A DNA stretch of 64,000 nucleotides from Natrinema salsiterrestre (GTDB lineage: Archaea > Halobacteriota > Halobacteria > Halobacteriales > Natrialbaceae). The position numbers were made by a program, and so were the translations under genes. The notes beneath the pieces were generated by a model. It saw only the letters and a list, made by a program, of their open reading frames with translations. It searched no databases and had not been told where the DNA came from. Shown one piece after another: positions 6,001 to 62,259 of the stretch (positions are counted from its first letter, which is position 1; each line of letters begins with the position of its first letter). Location: positions 1-64,000 of the forward strand of contig NZ_JAMQOT010000009.1 in the NCBI RefSeq assembly GCF_029502005.1, read 5' to 3'.

Positions 6001-6278
6001 ACAGTGGCGAAGAGCCACCACAGATACAAATCTCTGCCAAGCCACGCGGATCGAAATGGGTCATCTCAGTGCACGACGAGGGAATCGGGATCGATCCGGA
6101 CGATCAGGGTCGGATTTTCGAAGTGTTCCAACGGCTCCATAGTCGCGAGGAACACGAGGGAACTGGCATCGGGCTCGCACTCTGTCAGCGAATCATCGAG
6201 CGACACGGCGGCGAGATCTGGGTTGACTCCGAACCCGGCGATGGATCGACGTTCTCGCTCACACTTTCGGCTGCTTGA
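3069..6278 (+). CDS. Multi-PAS sensor histidine kinase
   Basis: This is a cytoplasmic sensor kinase of about 1069 residues. A short N-terminal winged-helix-like segment (VTADEVAANLDCPLQTARQC) precedes six PAS modules in series, recognisable from their repeated cores such as DYAIFMLDPDGVVSSWNEGA, IGICVLTADGEFVRANRRML and DGIYVKDEDGYFTMVND, each usually closed by a DITERRERE linker. The HisKA box FAYAASHDLQEPLRMI carries the phospho-acceptor at His860, and the HATPase domain has NLISNAIEYSG, DEGIGIDP and GTGIGLALC. No transmembrane segment is visible and no receiver domain or response regulator is adjacent, so the phosphorelay partner is elsewhere. I chose the ATG at 3069 because the upstream in-frame residues are not acidic. 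Confidence 0.9.
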   Translation: MGSPGSTPDITREDVRGVFTRFEQPSMPVTADEVAANLDCPLQTARQCLAEFAESSDLQTRLVGDATRVWWYPESGEPTTESSKAEFASFVSAVTDYAIFMLDPDGVVSSWNEGAERIKGYREDEIVGEHFSTFYTDSDIAEGVPEQNLEIAAEAGRVEDEGWRVRDDGTRFWASVTITAIQDEDGTLRGFTKVTRDMAERRVYEQQLRQERDLTEQVFETIPIGICVLTADGEFVRANRRMLDRIGASKSELSDFSVDSWEIYDDEGVSIPTEEWPWMRVADTGEPVYDYRCQVELPEIGRRWLSLNAAPLEDEATGEPRVVVSVDDITERREREQQLRRQHDQTEQLLRTAPVAIAVQDADGETVMANRRAQDALGLSEQELISGPDDATEWETYDETGEPLASDELPAARVLETGNPVFEEELTIDPPSGDQIRFRVNAAPLFGSDGSIERVVTAAKDITELKERERQLEQRKSELETELSEILDRISDAFYALDREWRFTHLNDQAAEILPQSREQLLGRELWDVFPDATEGVYWDEFQTAMETQESVSFEVYEDDLDAWFEFNVYPSDSGLSIYFHDVTERVAHEQELAKYETIVETINDGIYVKDEDGYFTMVNDAYAELTGYNRDELVGAHASLVVDESTVDQSKERLSLGDDEPGSATIEAEIHTAAGDHVPAEGTFATLQTDTGREEIGVVRDITERKEREQKLRERERHLKRYKEYTDDILDAIDDIFYLLNEDGELQRWNESLGDVTGFSDGEIGSMHAPEFFGEADREAIVAAIEDGFQTGATQVEAEIRTKDGGHIPYEFVASTLEDPDGKRVLAGIGRDITDRREYERKLEESNERLEHFAYAASHDLQEPLRMITSYLQLVESRYSDELDEDAEEFIEFAVDGAERMRDMIDGLLQYSRVETEGDPFEPIDLDDVLDHTLENLEIQIEETHAEIASESLPRVRGDDSQLQQVFQNLISNAIEYSGEEPPQIQISAKPRGSKWVISVHDEGIGIDPDDQGRIFEVFQRLHSREEHEGTGIGLALCQRIIERHGGEIWVDSEPGDGSTFSLTLSAA

Positions 6279-9544: not shown

Positions 9545-10447
9545 CTACTCCTGGAGTCGTGATGCGAGCTGTGTCAGTTCGTCGCGTTCGTCGATCGATG
9601 ACAGCCAGCCCACCGGAAGCTCACCTGCACCGAATCGTGCTCCGGCGATGGCGCCGGCGACCGCACCGATAGTGTCGGCATCCCCGCCGCGGTTGACCGC
9701 GGTAACAATCGCGCTCTCAGCGCTGTCGGCCGTGAGTGCGTCAGCGAGTGCCGTCTGGAGCGTGTGCACGACGTATCCCGACGTCTGCAGTGTTTCGGGT
9801 CGGTCGCCATTGGCAATCGGCTCGAGCGCCGAAATCAATTCGTCGGGAGCTTTCGCTCGGATCGCATCGAGTGCGCTCGAGAGTGGCTCCGATTCGTCGT
9901 TCAGGAGCCCTGCGATTGTGAGGTTCAGGACGGCACACCCGTATGTACAGCGGGGATCGGCGTGGGTGATCACTGAGGACTGACGGCTCACTCGGGTGAG
10001 TGTCTCTCGATCCTCGTGGTACGCAGTCGAAAGCGGCGGACATCGCATCACGCTGCCGTTGCCGGCGTTGCTGCCTTCGGAACTCGTCTCCCAGACTTGG
10101 CGGCCTGCCTCGTCCCAGGCGCGACCTCGCTTCAGTTGCTCGAGTGAGCGACGCGTCATATTCCCGATGTCGAAGGGTCCGCTGTCGTACCACTGTACGA
10201 ACCGATCGGCGACATCGGCGGGTTCGAATGCGTCGTGTTCGGCGAGACTACGAGCGATACAGAGCGCCTGCTCCGTATCGTCAGTGATCGTCCCAGCCGG
10301 TTGTCCCCACGTGCCGTTGCCGACCATTTCAGTGAGCGTTCCGTACTCAGCTGCGATCCGGTCAGTGCTTTTGAATTCCACCGGACGACCGAGTGCATCA
10401 CCACAGGCGAGTCCAAGGAGGACTCCTTCAGCACGGTCTTGATCCAT
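9545..10447 (-). CDS. ADP-ribosylglycohydrolase family protein
   Basis: This is a DraG/ARH-fold hydrolase that removes ADP-ribose from proteins, nucleic acids or small molecules using two Mg ions. Diagnostic motifs are LGLACGDALGRPVEF near the start, GTITDDTEQALCIA (first metal-binding site), GNGSVMRCPPL, and VNRGGDADTIGAVAGAIAGARFG (second metal site, the DTIG motif). Length of 300 residues is typical. The ATG at 10447 was preferred to an upstream one at 10486. It is divergent from the small gene at 10621, and the shared intergenic region contains a paired inverted motif that could control both. The physiological substrate is unknown. Confidence 0.93.
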   Translation of the reverse strand: MDQDRAEGVLLGLACGDALGRPVEFKSTDRIAAEYGTLTEMVGNGTWGQPAGTITDDTEQALCIARSLAEHDAFEPADVADRFVQWYDSGPFDIGNMTRRSLEQLKRGRAWDEAGRQVWETSSEGSNAGNGSVMRCPPLSTAYHEDRETLTRVSRQSSVITHADPRCTYGCAVLNLTIAGLLNDESEPLSSALDAIRAKAPDELISALEPIANGDRPETLQTSGYVVHTLQTALADALTADSAESAIVTAVNRGGDADTIGAVAGAIAGARFGAGELPVGWLSSIDERDELTQLASRLQE

Positions 10448-10561
10448 AGGTCTTGTAGAGTGAAGAGTTCGGAAAAGTGTATTCACCAGTGGCTCCTCCT
10501 CGCGATGACTAGGTTGATTCAGAACGACCTCCTGGAACTGACAGGCACAAGGTCTGAACTC

Positions 10562-10620: not shown

Positions 10621-10944
10621 ATGTCCTACGAGTCACCGACGCCTCCGACGGAACTTCCCACTGACGTCGTCGACACACTCGACGACTACTCACCCAAGCT
10701 CCTCCAGCAAGTCGCACAGTATGCTGAAGAACTCGCCGAGTATCGCGAGCGCGAGGCTCGGCTTGCAGAGGAGAGCGACGAAGAGGCGATCGAAGAACGC
10801 CCTGAAGATCTCCCAGACGATGTTCCGGGAAAGGCAACGATCACGACCAAGGAAATCAACGACAACCGCTACTACTACTGGCAGTGGCGAGACGGTGACA
10901 AAATCAAATCGAAGTACAAGGGTCCAGTCAATCCGGACGAGTAG
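10621..10944 (+). CDS. Small DUF6788-like protein
   Basis: This is a 107-residue acidic protein. The first two thirds are a charged, probably helical segment (QQVAQYAEELAEYREREARL, then Glu/Asp-rich). The C-terminus ends with an aromatic core, RYYYWQWRDGDKIKSKYKGP, typical of DUF6788-type domains often met on mobile elements. Function is unknown. It is divergent from the ADP-ribosylglycohydrolase and sits directly before the replication origin. The start is supported by the position of the inverted motif immediately upstream. Confidence 0.8.
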   Translation: MSYESPTPPTELPTDVVDTLDDYSPKLLQQVAQYAEELAEYREREARLAEESDEEAIEERPEDLPDDVPGKATITTKEINDNRYYYWQWRDGDKIKSKYKGPVNPDE

Positions 10945-10987
10945 GGAGGTGCAATCGACTCGTTATTTTGTATTGGATTGTTCTGAG

Positions 10988-11304
10988 ACACCCCTTTATC
11001 GATGTGTTCGTCGGCATAGATCACTTGCATATCGAGAATTGAGAGATTCAAACAGACTCCACTGATACTCATCGATCCTCGAGGCCGAGTTAGTGGATCG
11101 AGGAAAGACTGTTTTGAGAAGGCCGTGCTTGAGCGAGAAACAGTAACGACGAATACTGAGGATTTGCGAGGAGAGACACCTCTATCGATGTGTCGATCGG
11201 GAGTCCGGAGATTATCGAGATATTTTCTCCGAATCAGTGATTCTGATTGAGCCCAAAGAAAGTGGACGTATCCACACAACACAGACACCCCTCTATCGAT
11301 GTGT
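10988..11304 (+). repeat. Origin-recognition-box-like repeats, forward trio
   Basis: Three copies: 10988-11007 (one mismatch, T for C), 11176-11193 (two C residues shorter) and 11285-11304 (perfect match to ACACCCCTCTATCGATGTGT). They share the invariant core CTATCGATGTGT except for the first, which has TTATCGATGTGT. Confidence 0.8.
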
Positions 11305-11482
11305 TCTATCTGTGGGTATAGGAGGAACAGAGACGAGAGAACGGAGATTTCGATTGGAGTAGAGAGAATTCTGGGCAGTGATCGCCTAAGAGATGGATTA
11401 GTAGAGAGATGGGGTAGTAAGAGAAGGACCGAATCAAGAGCGTCTGAGAGCAACAGAATAAGTGCAGTTCAGAACACATTGA

Positions 11483-11807
11483 ACACTTCGATAGAGGGGT
11501 GTGTGAGTGTTCGTTCTAGAAAGCTAGAAGAAGAGAAGGTATATGACTCAAGTTATCAGTTGGTAGAACGGCTCTTGCCGTGATATCTGGCAGTATCGCA
11601 CCTTTCCCGTGATTTCCCCGATCAATCACACCCCCTCCCCCTCGAGGAAGCAAACACATCGATAGAGGGGTGTCTGTGTGACCATCGTTCTGAATCATAA
11701 CACATCGTCGCTCGCCTTCGGATAATCGTCATCTCCCCATCTCAATCGAGTGGAATCGATGCAAACCATCCACTCAATCTGTGAAATACACATCGATAGA
11801 GGTGGCA
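11483..11807 (-). repeat. Origin-recognition-box-like repeats, reverse trio
   Basis: Three reverse-orientation copies: 11483-11502 (one mismatch), 11654-11673 (perfect) and 11788-11807 (diverged at the outer end). The last ends about 34 bp before the chosen orc1 start. Confidence 0.8.
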
Positions 11808-11840
11808 ACACTTTTCTTACCACACTGTATGGACCATCGT

Positions 11841-13268
11841 ATGGACGACTTCGAGGATCCTCGGGACGAGGCGGGGACATCGAAGGATGATACGACGGAG
11901 CAGGCTCTTCCCTCGTCTGATTCTACCGAGTCCGACCCTTCTCCATCCTCGAGCGAATCGAAGGCGGACGGTGAGTCTCAATCGATCGAGGATATGTTGC
12001 TGGAATTCGATCAGCAGGAAGGGCTGATTCGTGATCGGTCCCTTCTCGATCCGAATCATATCGTCGAAGAAGATCGAATCGTCGGTCGCGACGAGCAGCT
12101 CCAGGAAGTGACCAAGATGCTCCGCGTCGCTCTCGGTGACAACCGTCCCCCGAATCTCTTCCTCTATGGTCCGTCAGGGACCGGCAAATCGCTCATCACC
12201 AAGGCCGTCTGCAAGAATATCAGCGAAATCTGTGAGACGCGGGATATCCGGTTCGGGACGATCGAAGTCAATTGCCAGGATCTCGATACCCTCGGCGTTG
12301 CAGTCTACGAACTGGCGAGTCGCGCCGCAGACGAAGCTCTCGTCGAGGTGGAGGTTCCGAAACACGGCGTGGCGACCAAAGAAAAGTGGGACGAACTCTA
12401 TCGTATCGTCAACGAGAACTTCGATTCAGCGGTGTTCGTCCTCGACGAACTGGACATGCTCGTCGGTCGACGAGACAAGCAGGAGCCGGCGTTTTCTCGA
12501 TTGCTCTACCAGTTGTCCCGAGCAGGTGCGAACAACGAACTTACTGCACACGTCTCCGTCGTCGCGATCTCCAACGATACGAAAATGATGGAGTCCGTGG
12601 GAAGTCGAGCCTTGAGCTCGTTTACACCTGAAGACGTCCATTTCGACGACTACGATGCGAACCAGCTGCAGTCGATCCTTCGTCGACGCCAGGACGCGTT
12701 CTTCGAAGACGTTCTCGATGAGGATGTCATTCCGTTGGCGGCAGCTTTCGCAGCTCAGACGCATGGCGATGCTCGGAAAGCGATAGACCTCATGCGTGTC
12801 GCTGGTGAGCTCGCAGAACGAGAGGGCGACGAGCACGTCCGTGAAGAACACGTCCGCGAAGCTCAGGACAAAGTCGAGAAAAACCGAGTGCTCGAGGTCG
12901 TTCGTGGTATCAGTACACAAAAGAAGCTCTGTCTCTACGCGACGGCAGCAGTCGCTTCCGAGACGGACGACGAGTCCGCTCGCAGTACGACCGGGTACCG
13001 AGTCTATCAGTTCCTCACGGACGCGATTGACGCCGAGCAGTACCACCAGGAGACCTACGTCAACAAGATGAAGGAGATGACGACGTACTCGCTCGTCGAT
13101 TTCGAACGCCGGAGCCACGGCCCGAGTTCGGGAATGTTCCTCGAGTTCCAGTTCGGAGAGCGTCCCGAGACGATCCTCGAAACGCTTCGCGAAGACTCGC
13201 GTATCGATATGATCTCTGCAGATGAGGTGGCGACCGTCGTCAAATCACAGCTCCGTAACGAGACGTGA
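11841..13268 (+). CDS. orc1: Orc1/Cdc6 replication initiator
   Basis: This AAA+ ATPase of 475 residues binds origin repeats and recruits the replicative helicase. After an acidic, Ser-rich N-terminal tail come Walker A GPSGTGKS at residues 110-117, Walker B VFVLDELD at 198-205, sensor 1 VVAISNDTKM, and sensor 2 region HGDARKAIDLMR. A C-terminal winged helix (KMKEMTTYSLVDFERRSHGPSSG) binds DNA. The ATG at 11841 was chosen; ATGs at 11781 and 11829 would run into the last repeat. Nine repeats surround the gene, so it very probably initiates at this site. It belongs to the plasmid/secondary-origin class, judged by the non-chromosomal repeat sequence (inference). Confidence 0.95.
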   Translation: MDDFEDPRDEAGTSKDDTTEQALPSSDSTESDPSPSSSESKADGESQSIEDMLLEFDQQEGLIRDRSLLDPNHIVEEDRIVGRDEQLQEVTKMLRVALGDNRPPNLFLYGPSGTGKSLITKAVCKNISEICETRDIRFGTIEVNCQDLDTLGVAVYELASRAADEALVEVEVPKHGVATKEKWDELYRIVNENFDSAVFVLDELDMLVGRRDKQEPAFSRLLYQLSRAGANNELTAHVSVVAISNDTKMMESVGSRALSSFTPEDVHFDDYDANQLQSILRRRQDAFFEDVLDEDVIPLAAAFAAQTHGDARKAIDLMRVAGELAEREGDEHVREEHVREAQDKVEKNRVLEVVRGISTQKKLCLYATAAVASETDDESARSTTGYRVYQFLTDAIDAEQYHQETYVNKMKEMTTYSLVDFERRSHGPSSGMFLEFQFGERPETILETLREDSRIDMISADEVATVVKSQLRNET

Positions 13269-13285
13269 GGGTCTGTACCTGACGG

Positions 13286-13532
13286 GGACCCCTCTATCGA
13301 TGTGTTTCTTTCACTCGCTACGAAATCGGATTTCACTCTCCACTCTAAGCATCCACACACCTCTATCGGGATGAAAATCGCCATACTAGTGCCTAAGAAG
13401 GCGTATATGGGGGCCTATATGATTTCAAACGCTACGAGGAAATTTTTCCCGAGTTATTCATAACAAGCTGATTATCCCTCTCATTCACATATTCTCACGC
13501 ATTGAGAACACCACACACCTCTATCGATGTGT
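13286..13532 (+). repeat. Origin-recognition-box-like repeats, downstream trio
   Basis: Three forward copies follow orc1: 13286-13305 (differs only in the first three bases), 13354-13373 (diverged after CTCTATCG) and 13513-13532 (one mismatch). Between the second and third is an AT-rich stretch (about 13381-13500) with tandem GTATATG/CTATATG words. This makes a second candidate unwinding region. Confidence 0.75.
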
Positions 13533-13585
13533 TTCACTCCACATTCTCTCGATAGTCTGAGATTCCTCTCAGTAATTGGAATCAA

Positions 13586-13807
13586 TCAGTTCGAAGACGA
13601 TTCTGGGTCGCTTCGGAGGAGTGACTCGAATCTAAGCAATACACGCTTGTGACGGACACCATCGTCTGTCTCGACGACGTTCATTTCAGTTAGCCCCTCG
13701 AATTCGAAAGTCAACGCGGCAGCGAGGGAACTCCAATCCCGATCAGTGAAATCATTTACGGGCGTGTGAAGAGAGTCGAGATGACGAACTGGGCGACCTT
13801 GCTGCGC
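13586..13807 (-). pseudogene. Unidentified coding remnant
   Basis: A minus-strand open stretch of 73 codons ends in TGA and reads VNDFTDRDWSSLAAAL then FEGLTEMNVVETDDGVRHKR, with haloarchaeal codon choice and composition. No start codon precedes the coding-like part; the only ATG is near the middle. It overlaps the start of the plus-strand remnant. I read it as the 3' end of a lost gene; the family was not recognised. Confidence 0.35.
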
Positions 13808-60819: not shown

Positions 60820-62259
60820 ATGGTAGACGTAGTACGCATTCCGAAGCTCGGGCTGAGTGACTACGGAGATCTCGTCGCCTGGGAGGCCGACACGGGCGAT
60901 TCAGTGGAGACTGGGGACGTCGTCGCCGTCCTCGAGTCCGATAAGGCAAGCGCCGAAATCGAGGCTCCCGAAAGCGGCGTCCTGCTCGAACAGTACGTCG
61001 AGGAAGGCGAAGAGATCGCTATCGAAGTGGGGAAGCCCCTCGCAGTGATCGGTGAGGAAGGAGAGGCGGTACCGTCAGTGGCGGAACTCGAGGCCGACGG
61101 AGAGAGTGACGAGGGGACGGCGGAAGCCAGTGAGACGGGATCGAATACGGGTACCGAATCCGGCGACGGTGTAGCAGCCAACGGTGGCGCGGCGACTGCA
61201 GACGTCAAGGCGACGCCGCGGGCCAAGCGCCGCGCCAACGAAGCAGACGTAGATCTGGCGCGAATCGACGGGACCGGGCCCCAGGACGCAGTCACCGAAA
61301 GCGATATCGAGGACTTCCTCGAGAGTGGCGACGGAGCGTCGGCGGCGGGCCGCGAGGAGTCCGACGCTGACACCGCGTCCGCGACGGACGTCAAGGCGAC
61401 GCCGCGGGCCAAGCGTCGCGCCGAGGAGGACGGCGTCGAGCTGTCTCGAATCGACGGAACGGGCCCGCAGGGAGCGATCACCGAGAGCGATGTCGAAGCG
61501 GCCACGAGCGGTGCCGATATCGACCGGTCCGACGCGTCGGCGACCGCGAGCGACGAGACGACCACTGACGGACTCACCGTGACGGAATCGCAGAAGCTCA
61601 CCGGCGCACGGAAAACGATCGCGGAGCGCCTGAGTCAGAGCGCTCGAGAGAAACCCCACGTCATGGGGACGCGTGATATCGGCATCGAGCGCCTCGAGGA
61701 AGTCAAAGACCGACTCGAGGAGAAGGGAGTCGACGTCTCGCTAAACGATCTCATCCTCCACTTCGTCGGCCGAACGCTGGAGGATCTCCCCGAGTTCAAC
61801 GCGCACTTCGAGGACGGCGAACACCGCCTCATCGACGAGATCAACGTCGGCTACGCGGTCGACAGCGAGCGAGGACTCATGGTACCGGTGATCGACGACG
61901 TACCGGATCGCGACCTCGAGGAGCTGGCGTCCGAGCGGCGACGGCTCGTCGAGGCAATCCTCGAGAACGAACACTCGCCGTCTGATCTTCAGGGAGGTAC
62001 CTTCACCGTCACCAACGTCGGCGTCTTCGACATGGACGTCTCCTATTCGATCATCAATCCTCCCCAGGTGGCGATCCTCGCACTCGGCCGACGCAAGCCG
62101 ATTCCCGTCGAGCGCGACGGTGACGTCGAATTCGAGCGTGCGATCACGTTCAGTCTCACGATCGATCACCGCGTGCTCGACGGGGCCGACTCGGGCGCAT
62201 TCCTCGAACGTCTCGCCGAGTACCTCGAGTACCCCGGACGAGCGTTCGACGCCGTGTGA
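60820..62259 (+). CDS. Dihydrolipoamide acyltransferase (E2) with two E3/E1-binding domains
   Basis: A 479-residue core subunit. One lipoyl domain is at the N-terminus (VVAVLESDKASAEIEAP, lipoyl Lys42). An Ala/Asp/Glu-rich linker follows, then two peripheral-subunit-binding domains at about residues 128-170 and 190-228 (DVKATPRAKRRANEADVDLA and DVKATPRAKRRAEEDGVELS; each ends in DGTGPQ). Their first 29 bp are identical. The catalytic domain has LSQSAREKPHVMG, INVGYAVDSERGLMVPVID and the active-site IDHRVLDGADSGAFLE (His450). No E3 gene is nearby, so lipoamide dehydrogenase must come from elsewhere. Confidence 0.93.
   Translation: MVDVVRIPKLGLSDYGDLVAWEADTGDSVETGDVVAVLESDKASAEIEAPESGVLLEQYVEEGEEIAIEVGKPLAVIGEEGEAVPSVAELEADGESDEGTAEASETGSNTGTESGDGVAANGGAATADVKATPRAKRRANEADVDLARIDGTGPQDAVTESDIEDFLESGDGASAAGREESDADTASATDVKATPRAKRRAEEDGVELSRIDGTGPQGAITESDVEAATSGADIDRSDASATASDETTTDGLTVTESQKLTGARKTIAERLSQSAREKPHVMGTRDIGIERLEEVKDRLEEKGVDVSLNDLILHFVGRTLEDLPEFNAHFEDGEHRLIDEINVGYAVDSERGLMVPVIDDVPDRDLEELASERRRLVEAILENEHSPSDLQGGTFTVTNVGVFDMDVSYSIINPPQVAILALGRRKPIPVERDGDVEFERAITFSLTIDHRVLDGADSGAFLERLAEYLEYPGRAFDAV

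Follow-up and report, generated by a model that had tools for sequence, protein, structure and literature searches.

A candidate Orc1 replicator cassette of Natrinema salsiterrestre and the inverted interiors of its relatives

The window, a stretch of 64,000 bp from Natrinema salsiterrestre that forms the start of a contig of 123,755 bases, contains an orc1/cdc6 gene flanked by a set of boxes; this layout is conserved in relatives, in several of which the module between the opposed boxes is inverted. The locus is probably a replicator-initiator cassette, in which Orc1 and boxes of its own would combine origin, regulation and titration. Origins of this kind are known, and the unexpected feature is the repeated inversion, in relatives, of the interior between the opposed boxes.

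Box array, genomic setting and family

Seven matches to ACACCCCTCTATCGATGTGT at no more than 3 mismatches were identified in the 64-kb window, forward at 10988, 11174, 11285, 13286 and 13513 and reverse at 11483 and 11654, with a mean of 0 matches in 100 dinucleotide-shuffled controls. The whole draft genome (4,787,139 bases) has the same seven matches only at this threshold, and none to the reversed pattern. The sequence-only reading had counted nine boxes, and nine sites are indeed present, of which just seven are full and two truncated (reverse at 11788-11802, 15 bp, and forward at 13355-13368, 14 bp). As expected of an orc/cdc6-associated origin, the boxes lie in intergenic DNA on both flanks of orc1 and include inverted ORB repeats. 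The outer end of the box carries a C-run of about 4, one position being C in 73%, and this run falls short of the long G stretches described for ORBs. The features of the locus are as follows.

10988..11007, forward: Orc1 box, 1 mismatch
11174..11193, forward: Orc1 box, 2 mismatches
11285..11304, forward: Orc1 box at the left edge of the inner module, perfect; inversion breakpoint in relatives
11305..11482, no strand: purine-rich core between the innermost opposed boxes
11474..11482, reverse: 9-bp half-box ACACATTGA in tandem with the middle reverse box and directly adjoining it
11483..11502, reverse: Orc1 box, middle box of the module, 1 mismatch
11515..11539, forward: TCTAGAAAGCTAGA element and AGAAGAAGAGAAGG tract, candidate unwinding or accessory-protein site
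11631..11641, no strand: C-run CCCCCTCCCCC, directly inside the outer reverse box
11654..11673, reverse: Orc1 box at the right edge of the inner module, perfect; inversion breakpoint in relatives
11788..11802, reverse: proximal half-box, 53 bp 5' of the chosen orc1 ATG
11841..13268, forward: orc1/cdc6 initiator gene, 475 aa, Cdc6_lid and Cdc6_C domains
13286..13305, forward: downstream box, 2 mismatches
13355..13368, forward: downstream truncated box
13513..13532, forward: downstream box, 1 mismatch

Upstream of the array are an ADP-ribosylglycohydrolase gene (9545-10486, reverse) and a small ORF (10621-10944, forward); a hypothetical gene annotated in the corresponding place in Natrinema salinisoli is equally long. 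The closest plasmid DNA is from N. salinisoli, with 91.6% identity over 93% of 10945-13760, and when 24 kb were compared with that record just 14% matched, at the orc1 locus and slightly beyond. Eight other orc loci of the genome were examined. Five of these (L094, L095, L096, L098 and L099) each have their own clear boxes, three of them also showing a C-run that resembles the one at the orc1 locus, and the same method gave no convincing box set in L097, L100 and L101. The box of orc1 does differ from those at the other origins of the genome, as had been noted; since at least five of the eight other loci have their own boxes, this is normal here, and distinct boxes for each origin are reported in haloarchaea (PMC3528665).

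For comparison, 68 loci from a scan of genome contigs were combined with four plasmid records and the window. By the best local segment, 55 loci belong to one Orc family (71-100% identity) and 17 to a sister family (67-70%), and one fragment (L088) was left out throughout; L041 and L065 are without core, and L063 was aligned from a shorter start. Eight added plasmid loci, with L065 excluded, give an extended set of 62. Most family loci are 80-98% identical in Orc, L049 and L090 being slightly below 80%, L065 at 75% and L085, apparently broken, at 71%; bar these lower loci, the set agrees with the Wu 2012 rule for an origin family (Orc/Cdc6 at least 80% identical). The family box reads [CG]ACAC[C/A]CCTCTATCGATGTGTTC, based on 405 different extended copies out of 415 instances in whole loci at no more than 3 mismatches. 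Upstream of orc1 the boxes are all forward and then all reverse in 51 of the 55 loci (exceptions L041, L063, L065 and L090), a conservation that strongly supports the reading of the locus as an Orc1-linked origin with opposed boxes upstream. Among 125 genomes from the same taxonomic family as N. salsiterrestre, 39 have the exact 16-base version of the box, and none of the 125 has its reversed control. This Orc1-linked origin family is widespread and often found on haloarchaeal plasmids. The cassette sits on complete plasmids and, because the neighbouring genes vary among annotated loci, it looks like a mobile unit.

Some boxes lie apart from the cassette. Isolated near-perfect copies 2-3 kb 5' of orc1 (L029 at 1247 and 1559, L047 at 1337 and 1400, L054 at 1392 and 1581, L030 at 1196, L055 at 1267) are possibly remnants or extra titration sites. 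A viral scan found the 16-mer in three contigs, with one box site apiece and no array; one of them, an IMG/VR viral contig (L102), has a single perfect 20-base box at 6110-6129, which may be a stray copy or may serve to recruit the host initiator or titrate it. On three plasmids a second orc1/cdc6 gene is found a few kb from the cassette (L105 5043-6302, L108 7155-7425, L106 1-21).

The nearest solved relatives of Orc1 are 2qby and 2v1u. In the sister family the box is approximately ACnCACCCCTATCGATTTGTTC, with T at base 17 in 99% (G in 98% in the main family), mostly A at base 5 and mostly C at base 8, and this changed box goes with a changed Orc1 wing. Comparing 61 with 17 sequences, 50 fixed differences separate the two Orc1 families. 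Ten of these are in the winged-helix domain, seven of the ten falling within residues 420-437 (hypergeometric 2.3e-4, computed after the cluster was seen). A structure model that is good only in its C-terminal part (mean pLDDT 60, pTM 0.42) places here a helix at 403-416, the putative recognition helix, and puts the strands of the wing at 419-425 and 432-438, local pLDDT being about 67-87. A further 29 of the 50 differences fall in the AAA+ part, a region that contacts origins as well (PMC4010727), and therefore the wing need not be the sole determinant.

Inverted interiors in relatives

In nine loci (L022, L029, L031, L050, L057, L086, L109, L110 and L111) the middle box is forward. The inverted block comprises the core, the middle box and the spacer, and has the opposed boxes as breakpoints: between a forward box near -560 and a reverse box near -186 the DNA matches relatives reversed, and outside these limits it is forward where it matches. 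With z from plain shuffles of the matching or forward strand, so that exact values are rough, L050 against L056 gives reverse matches for the spacer (30.7) and core (18.5) and a forward match for the right flank (11.6), and L031 against L043 gives 17.1, 16.4 and 28.0 in the same order; for L086 against L021 the spacer (25.3) and core (7.1) are reverse and the right flank weakly forward (3.7), and for L022 against L021 the spacer is reverse (25.9) and the core has no match. L111 matches L031 forward (z 45). L029 is weak by itself (spacer reverse at 5-6.5, core at 4-5), and L109 and L110 were placed by their box pattern and their likeness to L029, which for L110 is strong and for L109 amounts to a forward spacer match (z 7.5) with the core unmatched. 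Even strains of one species differ: N. versiforme has the common orientation in BOL5-4 (L105) and the inverted one in JCM 10478 (L022), the spacer (29.3) and core (5.5) matching in reverse and the flanks forward (8.0 and 16.8).

Sequence markers within the block change sides with it. Comparing the 52 loci not called inverted with the nine inverted ones, the C-run is on the right in 45 against 0, a G-run on the left in 4 against 9, AGAAGA on the right in 46 against 0, and TCTTCT on the left in 2 (L054 and L062) against 8; these markers were not used for the first six inversion calls, and the alignment had been viewed before they were counted. L062 and L054 were kept out of the nine although their markers also point to inversion. 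The inverted set was chosen by hand after viewing the box pattern and purine content, which makes a comparison of purine content circular. On the Orc1 tree the nine rows require six changes, all forced by well-supported branches, and adding L062, or L062 and L054, makes seven. Blastn of the cores returned no reverse matches, and local alignment with shuffles was needed; by this method 70 of 1326 pairs have z of at least 5, 15 of them reverse. Reverse pairs with z of 5-7 that join loci not called inverted (L053-L056, L028-L048, L023-L061, L061-L085, L021-L049 and L043-window) may be due to chance. No inversion was found among the 17 sister-family loci, where a rearrangement suspected in L082 and L081 was rejected, the DNA aligning forward (deletion-like) or not at all.

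Such a pattern could also come from misassembly or chance resemblance, because the flipped stretch is bounded by inverted repeats of about 20 bp, the sequence of the module evolves quickly and some of the matches are weak (z for the core about 4-5 in L029 and 2.6-5.5 in L022). Repeats of 20 bp are, however, far shorter than sequencing reads, and four of the inverted cases (L029, L109, L110 and L111) are complete plasmids. Reverse matches inside the breakpoints are strong in L050/L056, L031/L043 and L086/L021, with forward matches outside, and markers that played no part in calling orientation flip as well, all of which makes an artefact very improbable. The inversions suggest that, provided these origins are active, the direction of the block relative to orc1 is not strongly constrained. 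Because a flip keeps the core between opposed boxes, the inversions do not test the need for opposed boxes. More tentatively, the interior could be an invertible module, with the opposed boxes as recombination breakpoints, repeated flips (at least six changes) and an origin that works either way; if flipping goes on within populations, it could switch the strength of the origin or the direction of the first fork. No report of a box-to-box inversion inside an archaeal origin was found in the open-access literature, supplements aside (PMC3528665, PMC3119063, PMC4595724, PMC4010727, PMC4441112 and PMC5350488).

Candidate unwinding site, regulation and downstream boxes

The 178-bp core at 11305-11482 was described at the outset as purine-rich, and it is (68% purine, 45.5% GC). 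Of the 63,823 windows of this length in the 64 kb, only 41 match this skew on either strand, all at this region or at one GC-rich place near 61 kb; the latter, 60988-61178, has an equally strong skew, is 63% GC and lies far from the origin. After correction for orientation the mean purine fraction of the core is 0.60, and it exceeds 0.5 in 45 of 48 loci (the counts over 48 loci, for purine, C-run and G-run, leave out L052, L060 and L062). The bias is thus real and conserved, but the best unwinding candidate is the adjoining 11503-11562 instead. An AT-rich stretch does lie between the opposed boxes: GC content is 45-49% in the core and spacer, compared with 51-69% when the window is taken in 2-kb steps. 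At a scale of 50 bp the region is least stable at 11513-11562, which lies between the two full reverse boxes, outside the purine-rich core, and ranks within the least stable 0.4% of 50-bp windows. The better-conserved non-box DNA is also here, in the interval 11503-11653 between the middle and outer reverse boxes, adjoining the core. Judged by stability and conservation alone, 11503-11562 is the likely unwinding site.

This interval contains TCTAGAAAGCTAGA with AGAAGAAGAGAAGG (11515-11539), the sole match in the genome to a 20-base pattern at no more than 3 mismatches, and AGAAGA stands at the same place in 46 of the 52 loci not called inverted. Among five sister-family loci viewed, AGAAGA is in the corresponding interval in three, two of which also have TCTAG. 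A TCTAG...CTAGA arrangement is also seen 5' of another orc gene of the genome (L098, around 2193) and of sister-family orc genes (L074 and L079), and the element may therefore bind a shared accessory protein. Of 48 aligned spacers, 47 have a C-run directly inside the outer reverse box, against 2 with one in mid-spacer. In most loci, as judged by eye, a tandem 9-base half-box abuts the middle box.

Closer to the gene, 47 of 52 loci have a half-box ACAC[A/T]TCGATAGAGG at 52-55 bp 5' of the start codon chosen, against 16 of 2600 shuffles, and the five misses include loci where the wrong ATG was probably picked. After the half-box comes conserved DNA with a T-run at its end, which can be read as the orc1 promoter. 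Given its fixed distance from the start codon, autoregulation of Orc1 through the half-box at 11788-11802 is likely.

From this arrangement we infer Orc1 binding, an unwinding site, helicase loading, autorepression and titration. Orc1 from 11841-13268 would bind its own boxes, the opposed copies at 11285 (forward) and 11654 (reverse) bracketing a module of about 390 bp that contains the core, the middle box with its tandem half-box, the TCTAG/AGAAGA element and the C-run. Within this module, with 11503-11562 as the most likely place, Orc1 would unwind the duplex, and MCM would be loaded in both directions. When plentiful, Orc1 would repress its gene through the half-box just 5' of the promoter, and the direct repeats 3' of the gene would titrate Orc1 and limit firing.

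The downstream side had been proposed as a second unwinding region, with alternative origins flanking orc1. Three copies lie 3' of the gene, all in the same direction (13286 and 13513 full, 13355-13368 truncated), and the stretch among them, 13373-13512, is AT-rich (41% GC). At a scale of 100 bp the region is least stable at 13415-13514, narrowly ahead of 11457-11556, and boxes flank this stretch on both sides. The second origin was nevertheless rejected, as the boxes there are direct repeats. Downstream boxes occur in 60 of the 62 loci and are direct repeats, a converging pair being seen in just 2 of 62; in the set of 55 they are only forward in 50 and mixed in L032 and L052, and none was found within 900 bp 3' of orc1 in L048, L055 and L065. 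The sister family has its downstream array in the opposite direction, with one exception in L071. The downstream copies of the main family are also weaker (mean 1.30 mismatches against 0.28-0.77 upstream, 62 loci), and the analogous oriC2D of Haloarcula hispanica has no ARS activity, so that two origins are scarcely to be expected at this locus. In three loci the array is 1.3-1.5 kb away from orc1 (L055 5461-7200, L048 2397-4270, L058 5461-7400), wholly in L055 and L048 and partly in L058; these displaced arrays are still forward and their boxes near-perfect, as if under selection.

The cassette might also be a dormant or remnant origin, its boxes retained chiefly to control copy number and the expression of orc1, with the replicon driven from another origin. 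Dormant origins with Orc-adjacent inverted ORBs are known in vivo, among them oriC4 and oriP1 of H. mediterranei (PMC4595724), and boxes are present at no fewer than five other orc loci of the genome. Dormancy is nonetheless rather unlikely, as the whole module, beyond the promoter half-box, is conserved over many genera and the cassette recurs on plasmids beside unrelated genes, as a functional replicator would. Iteron-like repeats beside a replication gene, and a ParA gene near one relative (L112), could instead indicate a plasmid partition or incompatibility site; the opposed layout, C-run and promoter half-box match Orc-dependent origins, however, and no partition gene is among the five locus proteins scanned, leaving this reading hardly credible. 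The family is a natural experiment on archaeal origin architecture. The repeated inversions show which stretch acts as one block, initiator specificity can be tested by swaps between the two sister families, whose boxes differ at a few positions and whose Orc1 proteins differ in the wing, and the cassette is a possible vector replicon for Natrinema and its kin.

Comparison with known origins

To our knowledge, oriC2D of Haloarcula hispanica is the sole dissected case of such a downstream array. The oriC2-cdc6E/oriC2D locus likewise has inverted ORBs 5' of cdc6 and an ORB cluster directly 3' of it (PMC3936714), an arrangement also found at orc1. It differs in belonging to another Orc family, and the 51 plasmid records listed at 60% or above include none from H. 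hispanica. The likeness is one of layout. oriC2D has 11 ORBs against about three downstream boxes here, and three downstream ORBs are reported in H. lacusprofundi (PMC3936714). The 11 ORBs are without autonomous replication, have a negative effect and are essential unless oriC2 is deleted, and the H. hispanica origins depend on the adjacent cdc6 (PMC3936714). By analogy, the downstream direct repeats fit an Orc1-titrating array, whose effect may be mild with only three weaker copies. The oriC1 of the same species has a G-rich inverted repeat enhancer, with the C-run CCCCCTCCCC just inside the right ORB (PMC3936714) as CCCCCTCCCCC is here; only one half of it is conserved in the orc1 family, a G-run being near the left box in 9 of 48 loci. 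A second analogy, by description only, is the Sulfolobus ucm element with its protein UBP (PMC12141716), a conserved non-ORB element inside an origin, as is TCTAG/AGAAGA.

The shared ORB of Hla_3512 of H. lacusprofundi (PMC3528665) was tried as a possible counterpart and rejected, a 17-base part of it being absent at no more than 3 mismatches from L089 and the window. The cassette resembles the orc/cdc6-associated origin families of haloarchaea, which share with it an ORB specific to the family and tied to a single Orc1, boxes in opposed orientation, the occasional presence of boxes on each flank and a frequent extrachromosomal location; inversion of the origin interior is not described for them in the available text (PMC3528665). 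Two of the 15 genomes treated there, those of Natronomonas pharaonis and Halorubrum lacusprofundi, carry members of the family described here.
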